64,000 nucleotides of DNA from Bacteroidota bacterium (GTDB taxonomy: Bacteria > Bacteroidota > Bacteroidia > SXHM01), in assembly GCA_947479755.1 (NCBI GenBank), contig CANKAM010000013.1:1-64000 (forward strand), given 5' to 3'. Position numbers and translations under genes: made by a program. Positions 40,361-55,013 of the stretch are shown here, in pieces (positions within the stretch are counted from its first letter, which is position 1; each line of letters begins with the position of its first letter). The notes beneath the pieces are model-generated. The model was given only the letters and a program-made list of their open reading frames with translations. It was not told the origin of the DNA and searched no databases.

Positions 40361-41755
40361 ATGCGCGCAACTATTTTCTATTTTCTATTTTCTATCATCT
40401 CTTTTCTATCCTTTGCCGGCCAATCCCTCATTCAAGGTACTGCACCCGACTACAAAGGCAAGTTTGCCCGTCTCTATGTCTATGACGATTACCTTACCTA
40501 CACCGAGAAAGAACTGAGCGAAACCCGCGTTGGTCTTGACGGCAAGTTTGAGCTTTGGTTCACCATTGCCGAAACGCAATATGCCTTTATCCGCATCGAC
40601 AATGAGATCATGGATATTTATGTGGAGAAAGACAAGAAGTACAAGCTTGATTTTCCTCCGCCCACCAAGAACAAGGGTGCTACCAATCCGCTGAGTGAGC
40701 GCAACTACCGCAAGCTCCGTATGCTGGATGCCGACAGCACCTCGCTTAACCTTGCCATCCTGAAGTTCAACAAACTGTATGACGATTTTCTGGTTGATAA
40801 CCAGGAGGCGCTCGTGCGCAGAGGTATGAACGATAAGAAGCTGCTGCACGACCGCCTTGCTACGTTCCGCGATAATGTGGGTGAGGAGTTTTCGTTTTCT
40901 TCCAGTGATTATTTGCGGGCGCATATTCTTTATTCCATTGCGCAGCTGGAGCAGACCACCATGACCAGTGATGAAAAACTCTTTACAGACTACCTTGAAA
41001 AGCCTTTGCTGGAAAAGAATTATGAATACATGCGTTTCTTCCACCAGTATTTTGAACGGTATTTACAGCTATTTCGACTTACAGAAAAGGGCAGAGGTTT
41101 GTTGGATGCCATTAATAACTTCAGCGTACTTGAGAAAGTAAACGATGTATTGAATGCCGATGAAAAACTGCGCAACAAAATTACCCGCGAGGCGGTGCTG
41201 ATTGACGGCATCATTCAACTTTATAACAATCCCGATTTCAAAAAGGATAAGATGGTAAAGGTGCTGGATGCGCTTACTCAGCAGGCCTCAACTCCTTACC
41301 TGAAAACGGCTGCTGCTAACGCCAAGGCGTTACTCACCCGCAACCAGCCGGGCACCATGGCTCCCGAGTTTGAAATCCGCAGTCATAATAATCTGCTGAC
41401 AAGGCTTAAGGATTTTGAGGGCAAATATGTTTACCTCCAGTTTACTGATGTCAGTTGTTTGCAGTGCAATTCAGAAACCAAAACAGTTGCCGACCTGCAA
41501 AAGAAGTATGGCGACAAGGTTCAGTTTGTGACCATCACCATCAACAATGATTTTGAAGAAACCCGCGACTTTGTAAAACGCAACAGCTATAACTGGACCT
41601 TTCTTATTGCCGGTGACAACCACAAAGCGCTGGAAGATTACAACGTAAAATCAGTGCCCGAGTATTTCTTTATTGGTCCAACGGGTAAGTTTGTGCAATC
41701 GCCCGCCACCCGCCCCGACAGGGGAATTGACAGGACTTTCTTTGATTTGAAGTAG
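40361..41755 (+). CDS. Exported thioredoxin-fold (TlpA-like) protein
   Basis: This 464-residue protein has a signal peptide (ATIFYFLFSIISFLSFAGQ). A beta-rich N-terminal region with DUF4369-like pattern (about 20-110) and a helical middle region are followed by a thioredoxin-like domain from about 330. The redox motif is CLQC in FTDVSCLQCNSETK, with the cis-Pro loop YNVKSVPEYFFIGP. It is probably a periplasmic or outer-membrane associated thiol reductase or oxidase, as in the TlpA/ResA group. The partner is unknown. Confidence 0.85.
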   Translation: MRATIFYFLFSIISFLSFAGQSLIQGTAPDYKGKFARLYVYDDYLTYTEKELSETRVGLDGKFELWFTIAETQYAFIRIDNEIMDIYVEKDKKYKLDFPPPTKNKGATNPLSERNYRKLRMLDADSTSLNLAILKFNKLYDDFLVDNQEALVRRGMNDKKLLHDRLATFRDNVGEEFSFSSSDYLRAHILYSIAQLEQTTMTSDEKLFTDYLEKPLLEKNYEYMRFFHQYFERYLQLFRLTEKGRGLLDAINNFSVLEKVNDVLNADEKLRNKITREAVLIDGIIQLYNNPDFKKDKMVKVLDALTQQASTPYLKTAAANAKALLTRNQPGTMAPEFEIRSHNNLLTRLKDFEGKYVYLQFTDVSCLQCNSETKTVADLQKKYGDKVQFVTITINNDFEETRDFVKRNSYNWTFLIAGDNHKALEDYNVKSVPEYFFIGPTGKFVQSPATRPDRGIDRTFFDLK

Positions 41756-41759
41756 GCAA

Positions 41760-41849
41760 CAAGCCACATAGTCAAGTAGGGAAGTAGCCAATTAGCAAAC
41801 AAGCTATCTGCCTATTCTGCTATTTCCCTATTTACCTGCTTGGCTATTT
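41760..41849. repeat. Dispersed repeat rich in TAGCCAATTAGC / GCTATTTCCCTATTT
   Basis: A region of short quasi-repeats (AAGTAGGGAAGTAGCCAATT then GCTATTTCCCTATTTACCTG) forms a loose inverted repeat with about 7-8 base periodicity. It covers the convergent ends of the thioredoxin-like gene and gtrA, and enters the gtrA 3' end. It may act as a terminator. Confidence 0.5.
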
Positions 41850-42316
41850 GGCTGATTTCTGAACACCCAAATCTTTTGCCCGGTAAAGTTCAGCACGGCA
41901 CTCATGCCGGTAGCACCTACAAAAGCAATCAGGTATTTGTTGGGAAGGTCAATAATGTGACTGTAATTATGCAGCACAAAAAGAAGAAAGGTATTGGTAG
42001 CCACATTCACCAGCATAGAAGTGCCGTACAGCAGCATAAACTTGGCAAAGCGTGAGTGGTTCTTGTCGCGCTTGCGCCAGGTCCACAGCTTGTTAAGGTT
42101 ATAGGTAACAAAGGTGCCGCACATAAACGAAATGGTTTTTGAAACCACTTCGGGGGCAATCATCTCTTTAAAAGTTTCGGGAAAAGAGTTGAGCAGCACA
42201 TAGTAAATAGCCATATCCACAAACACGGCAAGAAAACCAATCAAGCCGAACTTGATGATTTGCTTCTTGAACTCGGATATGTTTTTTACCTGCTTATACA
42301 CGGAGGTTGCAAACAT
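41828..42316 (-). CDS. GtrA-family membrane protein
   Basis: This 162-residue protein has four predicted membrane helices. It starts IIKFGLIGFLAVFVDMAIYYVLL and carries the GtrA motifs FMCGTFVTYNLNKLWTW and FVGATGMSAVLNFTGQKIWVF. GtrA proteins are thought to flip undecaprenyl-linked sugars for O-antigen or teichoic acid glycosylation. No partner glycosyltransferase is adjacent. A terminator lies just upstream. Confidence 0.9.
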   Translation of the reverse strand: MFATSVYKQVKNISEFKKQIIKFGLIGFLAVFVDMAIYYVLLNSFPETFKEMIAPEVVSKTISFMCGTFVTYNLNKLWTWRKRDKNHSRFAKFMLLYGTSMLVNVATNTFLLFVLHNYSHIIDLPNKYLIAFVGATGMSAVLNFTGQKIWVFRNQPNSQAGK

Positions 42317-42322
42317 AGAAAT

Positions 42323-42359
42323 AAAAACCCTCAGCAGTGCAACAGTGCTGAGGGTTTTT
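42323..42359 (-). terminator. Terminator downstream of the unknown protein gene
   Basis: AAAAACCCTCAGCA and TGCTGAGGGTTTTT form a strong stem around GTGCAACAG. The T-run on the minus strand places it after the gene at 42380-43096. Its right side also has a T-run. Confidence 0.85.
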
Positions 42360-42379
42360 GGTTTGGCTAATCTGCTCTT

Positions 42380-43096
42380 CTACCAGTTCACCCTCGCGCT
42401 CACCTCATCGCTCCAGGGACCGCTTTTAGTATCGTCAACCGTGTTTTTCCAGCGGGTGGTTATGGTAAGCAGTTTGCCTCCATCGGTATCGGCAAGCAGA
42501 ATAGTATAACGGGCTTTGCCGCTTAGCAAAGGACCAATCCAGCTGGCAGCAGGGCCGGGAGTAGGCGAGGGGCTACCCGGAGTAGGAGGGGCAGGTGTAC
42601 CCGAAGCAACCTCAGCTACTTTATATTTATATTCCACCACATCGCAGTCAGCATGTTTGCTGGGGCGTGTGCTGTCGGCAATTACACGGTTCTCCACCAT
42701 GATGCGGAAACCGTTTTGCGAGTTAAGTATAACATTAGGCTTGGTGGTGATGGCAGGACGGGGACTGCCTGCTGTACGTTCGTGCAGGTTCAGTGTGTTG
42801 CGGTCACCGGTGGTGAGTGCACTTTTAGGTGTATCGTCATAGATATCGCGCAGCAATTCTTCTATATCAGCGCGCAGAATATTTTTGTTGTCGATAATGG
42901 TTTTGGTAGCCGTGTTGGTGTTTTGGCTCTGAGGATACAGCGTATCCCAACTCATTTTATAGGTACTGAGCTGTGCCATATTTGATGCCGAAATAAGAAA
43001 CCGTGCTAAATTGGCGGGGTCAGTAAGGTAAGCATATACAATACCGAAATAATCATTGAAGTCTGCGTCTTTGGGTGGAAAAATTCCTTGTGCCAT
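42380..43096 (-). CDS. Protein of unknown function with proline-rich linker and Fn3-like C-terminus
   Basis: This 238-residue protein has no signal peptide. Its helical N-terminal half (MAQGIFPPKDADFNDYFGIV) is followed by a beta segment, a Pro/Gly/Ser linker at about 168-185 (TPAPPTPGSPSPTPGPA) and a C-terminal segment with ITTRWKNTVDDTKSGPWSDEV that resembles a fibronectin type III edge. I do not recognise the family. An 11-copy 21-base repeat array lies 59 bases upstream of its start. Its GC content seems higher than that of the dcw genes. Confidence 0.7.
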   Translation of the reverse strand: MAQGIFPPKDADFNDYFGIVYAYLTDPANLARFLISASNMAQLSTYKMSWDTLYPQSQNTNTATKTIIDNKNILRADIEELLRDIYDDTPKSALTTGDRNTLNLHERTAGSPRPAITTKPNVILNSQNGFRIMVENRVIADSTRPSKHADCDVVEYKYKVAEVASGTPAPPTPGSPSPTPGPAASWIGPLLSGKARYTILLADTDGGKLLTITTRWKNTVDDTKSGPWSDEVSARVNW

Positions 43097-43154
43097 GTTG
43101 TTTGTTTTTTAGAGTTTGTATTTAGTGAATTGATTGATTTTAATGATGCTGTTT

Positions 43155-43385
43155 ATTTTGTCCTTAGTGCTCTGCTCTTGCTCACGAGTGCTCGTCTTGT
43201 TGTGGCGAGCGCTCTTCTAACCTTCGCGAGTGCTCGTCTGACTGTCACGAGTGCTCTGCTTGTTGTGGCGAGGGCTCTTCTAACCTTCGCGAGTGCTCGT
43301 CTGACTGTCACGAGTGCTCTGCTTGTTGTGGCGAGGGCTCTTCTAACCTTCGCGAGTGCTCCTCTAACCTTCGCGAGTGCTCTGC
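43155..43385. repeat. Minisatellite: 11 units of 21 bp, 63 bp higher-order repeat
   Basis: Eleven in-register 21-base units fill 231 bases. Three subtypes alternate: TTGTTGTGGCGAGNGCTCTTC, TAACCTTCGCGAGTGCTCGTC and TGACTGTCACGAGTGCTCTGC, giving a 63-base period (start points 43201, 43264, 43327 of TGTGGCG). Each unit centres on GAGNGCTC, a near-palindrome. The first units are degenerate. There is no unique spacer, so it is not CRISPR. It occupies most of the 422-base gap 43097-43518. The remaining 43386-43518 shows nothing recognisable. Confidence 0.9.
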
Positions 43386-43518
43386 ATTATTCAAAGAACG
43401 ATAGAACTAAAAACTGAAGCTAAATTATCCTGGTTATTACCCTTTTGGAAATTTATGTAACAAATGCCCGGAATTATGCAGTAAATAACCTGTTAAGTGC
43501 AGTAAACGGAAAACGTCT

Positions 43519-43983
43519 TCAGGGCTTGCGGTAAATGCTTTCTGCCATTTCCACCAGCTGGCGGTAGCTTCTGCTGACGGTGATATCAACGTCAAGCTTA
43601 GGACTGAGAATAAGTGTATTACCATCTCTGCCTTCCAGGTAATGGATATTGATTATGTAACTGTCGTGCACCCGAAGAAAGCCGAATTTAAACAGCCATT
43701 CATCATAATATTTAAGGCAGTTGCGTACCAGCAGCTTTTCATACTTCAGTTGCCCGCTTTCTGCTGTCTTATAGATGAAGACATATTCGCCATAGGCTGT
43801 TATGGCTGTAATTTCGTTGGTTTTTTGTAACGTGAGGTACTTGCCGCTATGCACATCAATTTTTTCAGGAGAGGGCAGCGGCCAGTTAAGCCTGCCGGTT
43901 TGGGTATCGGTAAAGGGCAAAAAGCGCCTCACATCGTTTCCCGATGCCGGTATTTCTGATAAGGTGTTTCCCCGCTCCTGCAT
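43519..43983 (-). CDS. LytTR-domain DNA-binding protein without receiver
   Basis: The ATG at 43983 gives 154 residues. A TTG at 44079 could extend it by 32 residues but would overlap the divergent promoter. The C-terminal LytTR domain runs about 55-150: GKYLTLQKTNEITAITAYGEYVFIY, LKYYDEWLFKFGFLRVHDSYIIN and ISRSY-like VSRSYRQLVEMA. There is no receiver domain, so it is a one-domain regulator of unknown signal. It is divergent from the collagen-like protein gene, a plausible target. Confidence 0.85.
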   Translation of the reverse strand: MQERGNTLSEIPASGNDVRRFLPFTDTQTGRLNWPLPSPEKIDVHSGKYLTLQKTNEITAITAYGEYVFIYKTAESGQLKYEKLLVRNCLKYYDEWLFKFGFLRVHDSYIINIHYLEGRDGNTLILSPKLDVDITVSRSYRQLVEMAESIYRKP

Positions 43984-44063
43984 AAAGCGAAAAAAGGTTT
44001 TGGTTAAGTATTCTGCAGATGCAACGCTTTTTGTTATTCCATAAAAAAGATTTCTTCCAATCC

Positions 44064-44094
44064 TTGCTTGGTGTTGCAAAATTGATTTCTTTTG
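44064..44094 (+). promoter_or_regulatory. Promoter of the collagen-like protein gene
   Basis: TTG (44064-44066, within TTGCTTGGTGTT) is followed after 20 bases by TTCTTTTG, one mismatch from TAnnTTTG. The same TTGCTTGGTGTT string occurs at 49055, also 20 bases before a -7 element. Confidence 0.5.
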
Positions 44095-44131
44095 TGCGCC
44101 TTCTAATCAAATCAACCTAAAACCTAACACC

Positions 44132-45796
44132 ATGCAAAAACTACTTCTCTTGCCTCTTGCCTCTTGCTTCTTGTTTCTTGCTTCTCGGGCCCAGGCTCCC
44201 GAAAAAATGAATTACCAGGGTGTAGCCCGCGACCTGAGCGGCAACGTAATTGCTAGTCAGCCGATAGGCCTGCAGGTAATACTGCACAGCGGCTCAGGCA
44301 GCGGGCCTGTAGTTTATCAGGAAACACAAACAGCAACTACCAACGCATTCGGTTTATTTAATGTTCAGATAGGTGCAGGCACCGTTCAGTCAGGAACCTT
44401 TGCAGGCATTAACTGGGGCGGAAACTCCTATTATGTAGAAGTAGCAATGGATGCTACAGGCGGAACATCGTACACCAGCATGGGCAATCAGCAGCTGATT
44501 TCAGTACCCTATGCTTTGTATGCCAAAACAGCCGGAACCAGCGGCCCTCAGGGCCCAACAGGCCCGGCAGGTGCAACGGGATCTACAGGTGCTGCCGGTG
44601 CAACAGGGAGTGTGGGCGCAACAGGTGCTGCCGGTGTAACAGGCCCAACAGGCGTGGGAGTTGTCGGAGCAACCGGACCTACCGGTGCTGCCAACGCCAG
44701 CGGAACGGTGGACTATGTAGCCAAATTTACGCCTGACGGAACCACCCTTGGTAACTCAGTAATCTTTGATGATGGATCGTATGTTGGAATAGGTACCAAC
44801 TCCCCGGCTGCTGCATTGCACGTGGAGCATGTTGCCGGTGCCGGTATCCTTAACAGATCTACTGCCGGTTTCAGCTCAATAGATATTGATGCTTCCAATG
44901 GTGATGCTGCCTTGCGTTTTGCACGTGCAGGAGTTAATCAATGGAATACCCGTAACCGCCCGGCCGATGATTATTATGAGATCTTTGAACTGGGTGGCGG
45001 AGGTAGCAGGTTTATTATACAGGATGGTACCGGAAATGTTGGTATTGCAAACAGCTCGCCTGCCAGCAAGCTGTCCGTTACAGGCGGTGCCGATTTCAGC
45101 AGCAATGTGGGTATAGGAACTACAGCACCTGCGCAACTCTTTCAGCTGAACGGAACCACTTCCATGGGTGCCGACCTTGCCAATGCAGTTTTCTACGGAA
45201 ATATCAGTGGGCAATCGGTAGCTGTCAACATTACCGGTAACTCAACCGGAACCCCCGCAGGAACAGCCATTACAAGAACACTGATAGGCGCACACAACCC
45301 AACTCCTCCTGGAATAACACAAGGTTCAGACTACTACTATGCAGTGTGGGGCCATGCTTACTCAGGCGGTTCAAGCGCACATGGTCTTATTGCCTCTTAC
45401 GGAGCCGATCCCAATAACTCAACTAACTCAGCCTTTCTTGCCAATTCAATCTATGCAGCTTATTTTAATGGTAATGTTGGTGTCGGAACCAGTAACCCAA
45501 AGAGCATTCTTGACGTGAATGGTGCGCTGGGAACCAAAATATCAACACAAACGGGCTCTGCCGATGTTACCCTTGATAACACTGCCACCGTTTGGTATTT
45601 TACCGGAACGGCCAACGTGCTACTTCCTGCCGCCAATACCTGCACCAACAGGCGCTATATGATTGCAAACCGCAGTGCGTCTGTACGCACCATTTCTGCC
45701 TTCATAAGCCTCTCAGGCGTTTCAAGCACCAGCATAGCAGGCAATGTAAGCATTGAGATTATTTCGGATGGTACCAACTGGTTAAGGCTGGATTAA
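44132..45796 (+). CDS. Exported collagen-like repeat protein
   Basis: This 554-residue protein has a signal peptide ending SRAQA and an N-terminal domain beginning PEKMNYQGVARDLSG. A Gly-X-Y triple-helix stretch of about 17 triplets at about 135-190 follows (GPQGPTGPAGATGSTGAAG). A fibre-like tail has recurring VGIGT-type turns (YVGIGTNSPAAALHV, NVGIGTTAPAQLFQL, NVGVGTSNPKSILDV) and ends DGTNWLRLD. It resembles surface fibres and phage tail-like proteins. No type A or B sorting domain is seen. Codons 6-20 consist of a heptanucleotide repeat, so expression may be phase-variable. Confidence 0.85.
   Translation: MQKLLLLPLASCFLFLASRAQAPEKMNYQGVARDLSGNVIASQPIGLQVILHSGSGSGPVVYQETQTATTNAFGLFNVQIGAGTVQSGTFAGINWGGNSYYVEVAMDATGGTSYTSMGNQQLISVPYALYAKTAGTSGPQGPTGPAGATGSTGAAGATGSVGATGAAGVTGPTGVGVVGATGPTGAANASGTVDYVAKFTPDGTTLGNSVIFDDGSYVGIGTNSPAAALHVEHVAGAGILNRSTAGFSSIDIDASNGDAALRFARAGVNQWNTRNRPADDYYEIFELGGGGSRFIIQDGTGNVGIANSSPASKLSVTGGADFSSNVGIGTTAPAQLFQLNGTTSMGADLANAVFYGNISGQSVAVNITGNSTGTPAGTAITRTLIGAHNPTPPGITQGSDYYYAVWGHAYSGGSSAHGLIASYGADPNNSTNSAFLANSIYAAYFNGNVGVGTSNPKSILDVNGALGTKISTQTGSADVTLDNTATVWYFTGTANVLLPAANTCTNRRYMIANRSASVRTISAFISLSGVSSTSIAGNVSIEIISDGTNWLRLD
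44148..44189 (+). repeat. Heptanucleotide tandem repeat TCTTGCY in the signal-peptide codons
   Basis: Units are TCTTGCC, TCTTGCC, TCTTGCT, TCTTGTT, TCTTGCT, then a degenerate TCTCGGG. Because seven is not a multiple of three, gain or loss of one unit would shift the reading frame. A similar run on the opposite strand occurs at 9701-9730. Confidence 0.8.
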
Positions 45797-45812
45797 ATTC
45801 TCACTACCTCCT

Positions 45813-45850
45813 AACCCCTGACAGGATTCTTTATCCTTTCAGGGGTTTTA
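45813..45850 (+). terminator. Terminator of the collagen-like protein gene
   Basis: AACCCCTGACAGGA and TCCTTTCAGGGGTT form a long stem with an ATTCTTTA-type loop and T-rich tail, 16 bases after the stop codon. Confidence 0.85.
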
Positions 45851-45970
45851 TTTTCCGCAACACTTGCTTGGCGTTCTATCCTTATTTCGGGTCATTTATC
45901 GAATACCCGTAACCCCCGGCCAACACTTCCGTTTCATGTCAGGCGCATAAAATCTGCGCGTTAATTTTTC

Positions 45971-47233
45971 ATGAAGCGAAGCCTACTCCTGTTTATTATC
46001 TCCTTTATCATCAGCGTTCAGGCGTTTGCGCTTTCCAGTTTTCCGCCCGATATGCTGGCAAACAAAACCTTTGCAGAGCGTTACTTTTACCTTGACCTGA
46101 TTTACGTAAAGTTTATGCCTGTCGAAGACAGCATCCGCTTTTTTGCCCGTGCCGAAGAAATACGTCAGTTGGGCAAACAAACCAACGACCGCGACCTGGA
46201 ACTGGAAGCCGACCTGCTTGAACTGAACTTCATAACCCAAAACACATTTAACAACAGCAAACAATGCGTAAACGGACTAAACAGATTGTTTGCTATTGCC
46301 GAAAAAGAAAACAACACCATACTGCTTGCCCGCCTCCACAACCTTGCCGCTGATTTCTACTGGAGAACCAATTACGAAAAAGCCTTTGAGCACTATCATG
46401 CCGAGTATGAAATTATAAAAGACATGAGCGTTGATGAATACCCCGCCAAGCAGAAGTCAATCTATGAACTGGGTAACAGCTATTGGTTTTTCCGCGATTA
46501 TGAAAATGCCATGGGCTACATGACCGAGGCTGCCGGCACTGATATTTTCAGCGATAATCTTTACTACACCCTGCAGTCAACCAACACCGTGGGTTTGTGT
46601 CATCAACAATTAGGCAATCTTGACTCGGCCGATTATTATTTCCACCGCGCCAATTCCATAGCCGTTACCGTTGGCAACGATGCCTGGGATGGCATTACCT
46701 CCGGCAACATCGGTTATGATTTATACCAGCGTCAGCAATATGATAATGCCTTGCCCCTGCTGCAAAAAGACCTTGATTTAAGCGTAAAGCGCTCAGACTA
46801 TGGCTGTGCCAGCGGAAGCCTTATTATTATTGCCGAAATAAATCTTGCAAAAGGTGATATTGCCCTTGCCGAAAAACAGGCAAAGCAGGCGCGTGAATGG
46901 GTGCATAACACAGGCGAATACGGCAGATTAAAAACCCTGTATGCGCTGATAAGCAGGATAAATCAGGAGAAAGGTAATGAAGCAGTTGCCTCGGTTTATC
47001 GCGACTCATCGCTAATGGTAAAAGACAGCCTTGAAGCTAAACTGGAAGCACTTTATGCACTGCGTGTGCAACAAAAAACAGCTTTACAAAAAGAACGCGA
47101 AGCCGCTGAGAGCAGCGAAAAAGCAATCGCTTTCTTTACCGCCTTTTTGGCGGTTATTGCAATAGCACTAATTGTTTTCTCTGTAATCCGGCTTGTACTT
47201 CAGTTGAAGAACAACAATACCGTTGGTGCTTAA
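45971..47233 (+). CDS. Exported TPR protein with C-terminal membrane helix
   Basis: This 420-residue protein has a signal peptide (SLLLFIISFIISVQAFAL) and several TPR-like helical repeats over about 40-340 (for example LADFYWRTNYEKAFEHYHAE and ALPLLQKDLDLSVKRSDY). A short coiled coil (QQKTALQKEREAAESSEKA) and a membrane helix at about 388-412 end the protein. This matches the input half of Bacteroidota TPR sensor kinases, but the protein stops eight residues after the helix, with no kinase domain. Its role may be signal input or complex scaffolding. Confidence 0.8.
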   Translation: MKRSLLLFIISFIISVQAFALSSFPPDMLANKTFAERYFYLDLIYVKFMPVEDSIRFFARAEEIRQLGKQTNDRDLELEADLLELNFITQNTFNNSKQCVNGLNRLFAIAEKENNTILLARLHNLAADFYWRTNYEKAFEHYHAEYEIIKDMSVDEYPAKQKSIYELGNSYWFFRDYENAMGYMTEAAGTDIFSDNLYYTLQSTNTVGLCHQQLGNLDSADYYFHRANSIAVTVGNDAWDGITSGNIGYDLYQRQQYDNALPLLQKDLDLSVKRSDYGCASGSLIIIAEINLAKGDIALAEKQAKQAREWVHNTGEYGRLKTLYALISRINQEKGNEAVASVYRDSSLMVKDSLEAKLEALYALRVQQKTALQKEREAAESSEKAIAFFTAFLAVIAIALIVFSVIRLVLQLKNNNTVGA

Positions 47234-47236
47234 TTA

Positions 47237-48106
47237 TCAGCTGATCCTCTCCAAAACGGTGTCAACCAATTTCTCAATCGCCTTCTTATAATCTTTGCTG
47301 AACTGCAAGGTAACGCGGTTGCCTATAATAGCGCAAACCGTTGCGCAATTATGTCCAAGCGCAGAGCCTAAGCCAAACAGGGCAGAGGTCTCCATTTCAA
47401 AGTTGGTAATGCGTTGTCCGTTATAATTGAATGAAGTCAGTTGTTCGTTCAGGCTCTTCATGGAGGCATTCAGTCGCAGCTCACGCCCCTGCGGAGCATA
47501 GAAACCCGGAGCGGTGGCAGTAATGCCTTTGTACATTCCCTTTTCCAGTTGACTGATAAGTTTTGCCGAGCCTTCAAAAAGATAAGGTCTCGGCAGATTG
47601 CTTTTCCAGTTGGTGTGTTGAATAAAGGCATCAACCAGCGCCTCATTTTCATCTGTATTTGCAACATCGTAATAATTCAGCAGCCCGTCAAAACCCAACC
47701 CGTGTGTGGATAGCAGAAAGCCGTCTACAGGAATATCGGCTTGCAGAGAGCCCGAAGTTCCTATGCGGATAATGTTGAGCGCAGTATGTTCTTTTTTAGC
47801 AACGCGTTCCTTCAAATCAATGTTTACGGCAGCGTCCAGTTCATTCACAACTATATCAATGTTGTCTGTGCCTATGCCGGTTGAAAGCGCGGTTATTTTT
47901 TTACTCCCAATATAACCCGTGTGGGTAACAAACTCGCGGTTCTGCATTTTAAACTCCACCTTATCAAAGCGATTTGAAATAGCGGCAACCCTTTCCTGGT
48001 CACCAACTACAAGTATCGTCTCAGCAATATTTTCGTGCAGAAGGTGAAGGTGATAAACACTGCCATCAGGGTTAAGAATTAATTCTGTTTCCGCTATTTT
48101 GTTCAT
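47237..48106 (-). CDS. Nucleoside (uridine) phosphorylase
   Basis: The ATG at 48106 gives 289 residues. A frame to 48139 adds unmatched residues. The family I phosphorylase core shows AETILVVGDQERV, STGIGTDNIDIVVNEL, IRIGTSGSLQADIP and the nucleoside-site motif TNFEMETSALFGL. It cleaves a nucleoside with phosphate, most likely uridine. It is convergent with the TPR gene with a three-base gap. Confidence 0.92.
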   Translation of the reverse strand: MNKIAETELILNPDGSVYHLHLLHENIAETILVVGDQERVAAISNRFDKVEFKMQNREFVTHTGYIGSKKITALSTGIGTDNIDIVVNELDAAVNIDLKERVAKKEHTALNIIRIGTSGSLQADIPVDGFLLSTHGLGFDGLLNYYDVANTDENEALVDAFIQHTNWKSNLPRPYLFEGSAKLISQLEKGMYKGITATAPGFYAPQGRELRLNASMKSLNEQLTSFNYNGQRITNFEMETSALFGLGSALGHNCATVCAIIGNRVTLQFSKDYKKAIEKLVDTVLERIS

Positions 48107-54563: not shown

Positions 54564-55013
54564 ACAACTTAATCAAATGAAACCAACAATGAGTTAAATG
54601 TTGCCACCACTTAATCAAATGCTATTCAACTATTGGTTAACAGTTAGCACCACTTAATCGAATTGCACCCAACTATGGGTTAAGTTACGCCACGACTTAA
54701 CCAAGTTGCACTCAACTATTAGTTAAGTGTTAGCACCACATAACCAAATTGCACTCAACTATTGATTAAGTGTTAGCACCACATAACCAAAGTGCACTCA
54801 ACTATTGGTTAAGTGTTAGCACCACATAACCAAATTGCACCCAACTATTGGTTAAGTGTTAGCACCACATAACCCAATTGCACTCAACTATTAACCAAGT
54901 GCTAGCCAACTATTAATCATGTGGCGGGTAACTATGAGTTAAGTGGTGATAGCTATTAACCAAATGCTGACCAACTATGAATTAAGGTGCGCCACGACTT
55001 AACCCAATTGAAA
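54564..55013. repeat. Tandem array of 43 bp units built from 21-22 bp half units
   Basis: The word CAAC recurs at exact 43-base steps (54627, 54670, 54713, 54756, 54799, 54842, 54885). Each unit has two half units, CAACTATTGGTTAAGTGTTAG and CACCACATAACCAAATTGCACT-like, centred on TTAA. The halves are near inverse complements (GGTTAAGTG / CACATAACC), so each unit can form a hairpin. Outer copies decay and the last five are 21-22 base half units. It has no spacers and no open frame. It fills most of the 702-base gap 54420-55121. The flanks 54420-54563 and 55014-55121 show nothing recognisable. Confidence 0.9.

Follow-up and report, generated by a model that had tools for sequence, protein, structure and literature searches.

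Is a seven-base tandem repeat inside the coding sequence of a signal peptide a switch that turns the protein on and off, or is it the signal peptide itself, built from repetitive DNA? This question is raised by a gene for a collagen-like protein in a window (the whole 64,000-nucleotide stretch of DNA analyzed here) that is part of contig 13 of a 3.9-Mb assembly, with 112 contigs and 99.6% completeness. We refer to the genome of the window as G000, and to six further genomes of the same genus as G001-G006. We find that the array probably provides the hydrophobic core of the export signal and belongs to a genus-wide class of signal peptides derived from repeats.

The array at the start of the collagen-like gene

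The features at the locus are the following.

44132..45796, + strand: gene for a collagen-like exported protein of 554 aa, ATG at 44132 (ORF, Pfam; predicted export)
44132..44191, + strand: signal peptide MQKLLLLPLASCFLFLASRA, 20 residues, followed by QAPEKMNYQG
44147..44185, + strand: degenerate heptanucleotide array, 5.6 copies of CTCTTGC, forming the signal-peptide core (Tandem Repeats Finder)
44534..44704, + strand: short Gly-X-Y (collagen) tract, residues 135-191 (Pfam Collagen PF01391, 28.4 bits, cut-off 27.2)

The initial annotation described a heptanucleotide repeat that encodes the signal peptide, and both the sequence and Tandem Repeats Finder (period 7, 5.6 copies, 90% matches) confirm it. 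The array begins with base 16 of the gene (44147) and encodes the core of the signal peptide; its units are three perfect copies of CTCTTGC (21 bases), followed by TTCTTGT, TTCTTGC, and TTCT. By eye and by simple rules, the N-terminus has the features of a Sec-type signal, with a charged start, a hydrophobic core, and small residues before the mature part, and homologues suggest that the protein is cleaved before QAPEKMNYQG. The collagen label given to the product is a fair one, with PF01391 above its cut-off, but the tract is short.

Homologues of the protein within the genus (L177, L178, L182, and L183) have a signal peptide of similar length that by eye is not repetitive, and the same is true of homologues in other taxa (Phaeodactylibacter, L077; a Bacteroidales MAG, L088). 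In G001, a more distantly related homologue (L181) carries TCTTGCC-type units at the position of the signal peptide, over a shorter stretch. The N-termini of the homologues within the genus were read by tblastn.

The array has a lag-7 segment score of 24.5, and 11.5 is the maximum reached in six sequences of 464 kb simulated with a third-order Markov model. The 464 kb sampled from this genome contain 18 segments with a score of at least 11, versus a mean of 0.67 per simulation. When the 20 residues are recoded synonymously, using codon usage drawn from sampled genes, the score of 24.5 is reached in 0 of 40,000 draws, which places the repetition at the level of the DNA.

A hairpin role for the array was considered and rejected. 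The array lacks a complementary partner up to 120 nt away, its best score being 5.5 versus a control median of 7, and a repeat search found no inverted copy. The heptamer arrays of G000 and G002 together do not exceed random intergenic stretches in pairing at a score of at least 9 (7/35 versus 28/164); at a score of at least 11 they do so to some extent (6/35 versus 7/164), where two of the six are the arms of one pair. As separate observations, CTATTTG/CTATTTT arrays elsewhere in the genus form close pairs on opposite strands that are perhaps hairpins, and in the window a degenerate GCTATTTG repeat lies between convergent genes (41803-41858).

Heptanucleotide arrays across the genus

Searching with four TCTTGCN units and allowing up to 3 mismatches, we find 15 matches in this genome; over the seven genomes of the genus, this one included, the counts are 15, 26, 6, 12, 19, 31, and 4. 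Several of the genomes are incomplete (68-99.6%). The reversed-pattern control gives 0 in each genome. An order-wide search returns matches from these seven genomes only, all of one genus.

Merging overlapping matches leaves 86 places, of which 69, in 33 protein groups, are in-frame signal peptides as assigned by simple rules and by eye rather than by a trained predictor. The 69 comprise 67 assigned by rule (the 70 reported by our script, minus two places in L123 and one in L133) and two added by hand, L150, which is cut by the contig end, and L152, which has an internal start. The proteins include TonB-dependent receptors, S8 proteases, an outer-membrane barrel, a secretory-lipase-like protein, BamA, and TamL. 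Dozens of unrelated proteins use a heptanucleotide array as the core of their signal peptide. The other 17 places fall between genes, antisense to genes, or ahead of genes whose products look cytoplasmic.

The arrays are not restricted to one unit. Lag-7 arrays of any unit scoring at least 11 number 18 across the 464 kb sampled from this genome and 17 across 400 kb from G002, and lag 7 is the commonest among lags 4-17 in both samples. For comparison, lag 14, which is twice 7, gives 11 arrays in this genome; the remaining lags give 8 (lag 8), 6 (lag 16), 3-9 (lags 6, 9, 12, and 15), or 0-2 (lags 4, 5, 10, 11, 13, and 17). Tandem arrays of 7 nt therefore exceed both chance and the other unit lengths, as expected of dispersed heptanucleotide repeats, and this excess of degenerate arrays in the genomes of the genus is found both between genes and at gene starts. 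Five of the 18 arrays in this genome are in signal peptides (one of them, L023, doubtful), ten are intergenic, and three are internal to genes; in G002, four of the 17 are in signal peptides and 10 are intergenic. The intergenic share for all units is 10/18 and 10/17; for the TCTTGCN type, 69/86 are classed as signal peptides.

Strongly repetitive signal peptides are a minority, 4/129 in the sample from this genome and 4/97 in G002. Shuffling the codons of the signal peptides predicts 0.02 and 0.0 strong lag-7 cases, versus the 4 and 4 seen. In twenty stretches from other members of the Bacteroidia (332 kb) there are 4 lag-7 arrays and none among 88 signal peptides; with numbers this small, 0/88 is not clearly different from 4/129 and 4/97, and the lag-7 samples by themselves are too small to mark the signal-peptide use as special to the genus. 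Averaged lag-7 identity was discarded as evidence. Its mean over all signal peptides (0.290) is similar to those at lags 4 and 14, and at least one sequence in the outside group (L066) itself belongs to the genus, which leaves the measure uninformative.

Searches with CTATTTT and TTACTGN units give matches in all seven genomes of the genus, versus 0 and 3 matches, respectively, in the controls. Among the 60 loci inspected, many of them overlapping, many are in-frame N-termini. A pure array of TCTTGCT encodes SCFLLLA, one of CTATTTT encodes LFSIFYF, and one of TTACTGC encodes LLLTAYC, all hydrophobic. Of the 16,384 possible heptamers, 1,149 are stop-free and have a mean hydropathy of at least 1.5. 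Because 7 mod 3 = 1, the cyclic heptapeptide encoded by a stop-free heptamer array does not depend on which of the three frames is read.

Some orthologues in sister species carry different heptamers

A second gene in the window has an array of another unit in its signal peptide.

40361..41755, + strand: gene for an AhpC/TSA (thioredoxin-like) protein, with a CTATTTT array in its signal peptide (ORF, Pfam)
40371..40409, + strand: CTATTTT heptamer array in that signal peptide (Tandem Repeats Finder, period 7, 5.6 copies)

G000 and G003 both carry CTATTTT units in this gene, and its relative in G002 has TTACTGC-type units. Across the species, the leader is similar, the first residues are the same (MRA), and the mature part is conserved.

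BamA, which is essential in E. coli, provides another case. Each of six genomes yields a single strong match, G004 yields two overlapping pieces, and the proteins of G000 and G001 pass the TIGR03303 model. Four genomes (G001, G002, G003, and G005) have TCTTGCT-type units in the core of the BamA signal peptide, two (G000 and G004) have TTACTG-type units, and in G006 the core is non-repetitive. For TamL, the units are TCTTGC-type in G002, G004, and G005, and TTACTG-type in G006 (L278). One further protein group combines CTATTTT in G003 and G004, TTACTGC in G001, and a TCTTGCT-type unit in G006. Under synonymous recoding with 40,000 draws, the observed score is reached 7 times for the 40361 gene, and 2 and 6 times for two BamA genes.

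We compared 108 array genes, which form 61 groups, by script; unit differences are flagged in 9 of the 23 groups that span at least two genomes. About 7 of the 9 are clear; the less clear ones are a composite array (L014/L120/L135) and the family of the collagen-like protein, where the comparison is between paralogues. There is also one difference in length: the array in L051 is six units longer than that of its relative L016, an in-frame gain or loss. Orthologues in sister species can have signal-peptide cores made from different heptamers even though the mature protein is conserved, as is the 5′ leader in several of them, and different states of one gene are visible across sister species.

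Switching, copying, and the source of signal peptides

How could such a pattern arise? A process resembling slippage or recombination may keep seeding, extending, and replacing arrays, and selection would retain those that yield a stop-free, in-frame hydrophobic stretch. The array at 44147 would then be coding sequence held in frame, and not primarily a switch. In its general form, in this genus and sporadically in other members of the class, a process acting on the DNA would overwrite the cores of exported proteins, even that of BamA, with whichever stop-free hydrophobic heptamer array is available; we consider the chances of this to be about even. The frame-independence of 7-nt repeats would make such a replacement tolerable, and signal peptides would then turn over by replacement of arrays, besides by point mutation. 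This gives a testable route for the origin and replacement of targeting sequences, from microsatellite-like DNA to signal peptide. In the journal literature that we consulted, most of it open-access, we found heptamer arrays nowhere described as a general source of signal peptides.

The initial annotation had proposed phase variation instead. In that reading the array would be a phase-variable contingency locus at which slipped-strand mispairing toggles the collagen-like protein, comparable to the pentameric CTCTT coding repeats in the leader peptide of Neisseria opa (PMC3960869). Part of that proposal stands, namely the location and the frameshift arithmetic. Adding or removing one or two units shifts the frame and truncates the product at a stop after 43, 23, 30, or 36 codons, while a change of three units keeps the frame. 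As in opa, the repeat is short, it is within the coding sequence of a signal peptide, and its unit length is not divisible by three (PMC3960869), and the opa leader is the nearest functional likeness to our array. But opa is a fast switch of one adhesin family (PMC3960869), whereas the arrays of this genus are degenerate 7-nt repeats of several units that serve a wide range of unrelated genes and among which we saw no out-of-frame allele.

It is the switching that finds no support. The only near-identical copy of the gene that we found, a full-length identical one in G004 (record L063), has the same number of units, and no out-of-frame allele was seen among the 86 TCTTGCN-type places of the genus. 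One near-identical copy plus the arrays of the genus is a weak test for unit-number variation with OFF alleles, of which none was seen. In addition, none of the 17 arrays outside signal peptides lies, by eye, just before an exported ORF that lacks a signal peptide. Arrays of this kind also make up the signal peptides of the outer-membrane assembly genes BamA and TamL. Only three units of the array are perfect, and we accept the earlier remark that the imperfect later units lower the slippage rate. These results weaken phase variation as the main role of the array; it is unlikely in that capacity, and possible but secondary at this locus, where any switching could be slow or occasional. More generally, a frame-shifting repeat within a signal peptide is not on its own evidence of phase variation.

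The G004 copy is part of a longer identity. From 41309 to 47540, 6.2 kb of the window match G004 without a substitution, the sole difference being one 63-bp unit. That unit belongs to a tandem repeat at 43182-43385, about 0.8 kb upstream of the array and with a periodicity of ~21 bp, which has one unit more in the window than in G004. The flanks of the region differ from the G004 contig by many changes. Recent exchange between species, strong relatedness, and a binning artefact are alternative explanations for the identity.

Another possibility is that ready-made signal-peptide cassettes are copied between the genes of a genome by recombination or gene conversion. A few families of units do recur over many genes, and two unrelated genes of G005, BamA (L167) and L166, share 33 identical array bases. 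Moreover, the four genus homologues of the collagen-like gene listed above, from three genomes, combine a near-identical leader with an ordinary signal peptide. On average, however, pairs of unrelated genes are no more alike within genomes than between them (label shuffling, p = 0.30), and the tail of shared arrays of at least 22 nt, compared within versus between genomes, is marginal (label shuffling, p = 0.048). We regard cassette copying as rather improbable. Convergence at the protein level, by which selection for cores rich in Leu, Ala, Ser, Cys, and Phe happens to yield repetitive DNA, agrees with the hydrophobic peptides encoded by all three common units, as a signal peptide needs, but it is very unlikely and we disfavor it, since neither synonymous recoding nor codon shuffling reproduces the 7-nt period, a 7-residue peptide repeat would give a period of 21 nt, and the same kind of array occurs between genes.

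Signal peptides overwritten by heptamer arrays, the reading that we prefer, can also be compared with other heptanucleotide repeats. The ATCTTTC repeats of Haemophilus influenzae hmw1A and hmw2A are likewise 7-nt tandem repeats, there at surface-protein genes, but they lie between promoters and tune transcription (PMC8262952), whereas the repeat described here is coding. Heptamers are reported to be over-represented among bacterial repeats, with TAACTGA dispersed in Beggiatoaceae, Cyanobacteria, and some Bacteroidetes, and G-rich heptamers in Xanthomonas and Nostoc (PMC4679880; PMC4692102). These resemble the arrays of the genus in their many copies per genome, often near start codons, but they are mainly intergenic and TAACTGA contains stops (PMC4679880; PMC4692102), whereas in this genus in-frame, hydrophobic arrays form signal peptides. 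The main text of PMC4679880 does not contain the term "signal peptide."

Beyond the genus, the TCTTGCN pattern with up to 2 mismatches is present in 18 of 296 genomes of the class (4/5 of this genus and 14/291 others), and the reversed control is present in 5 genomes. An inspection of 23 loci outside the genus finds in-frame use as a signal peptide in at least four of those 14 genomes (L093; L106; L096 and L108; L103). The window also contains, at 54593-54892, a tandem repeat with a much longer unit, 43 bp in 7 copies with 85% matches.
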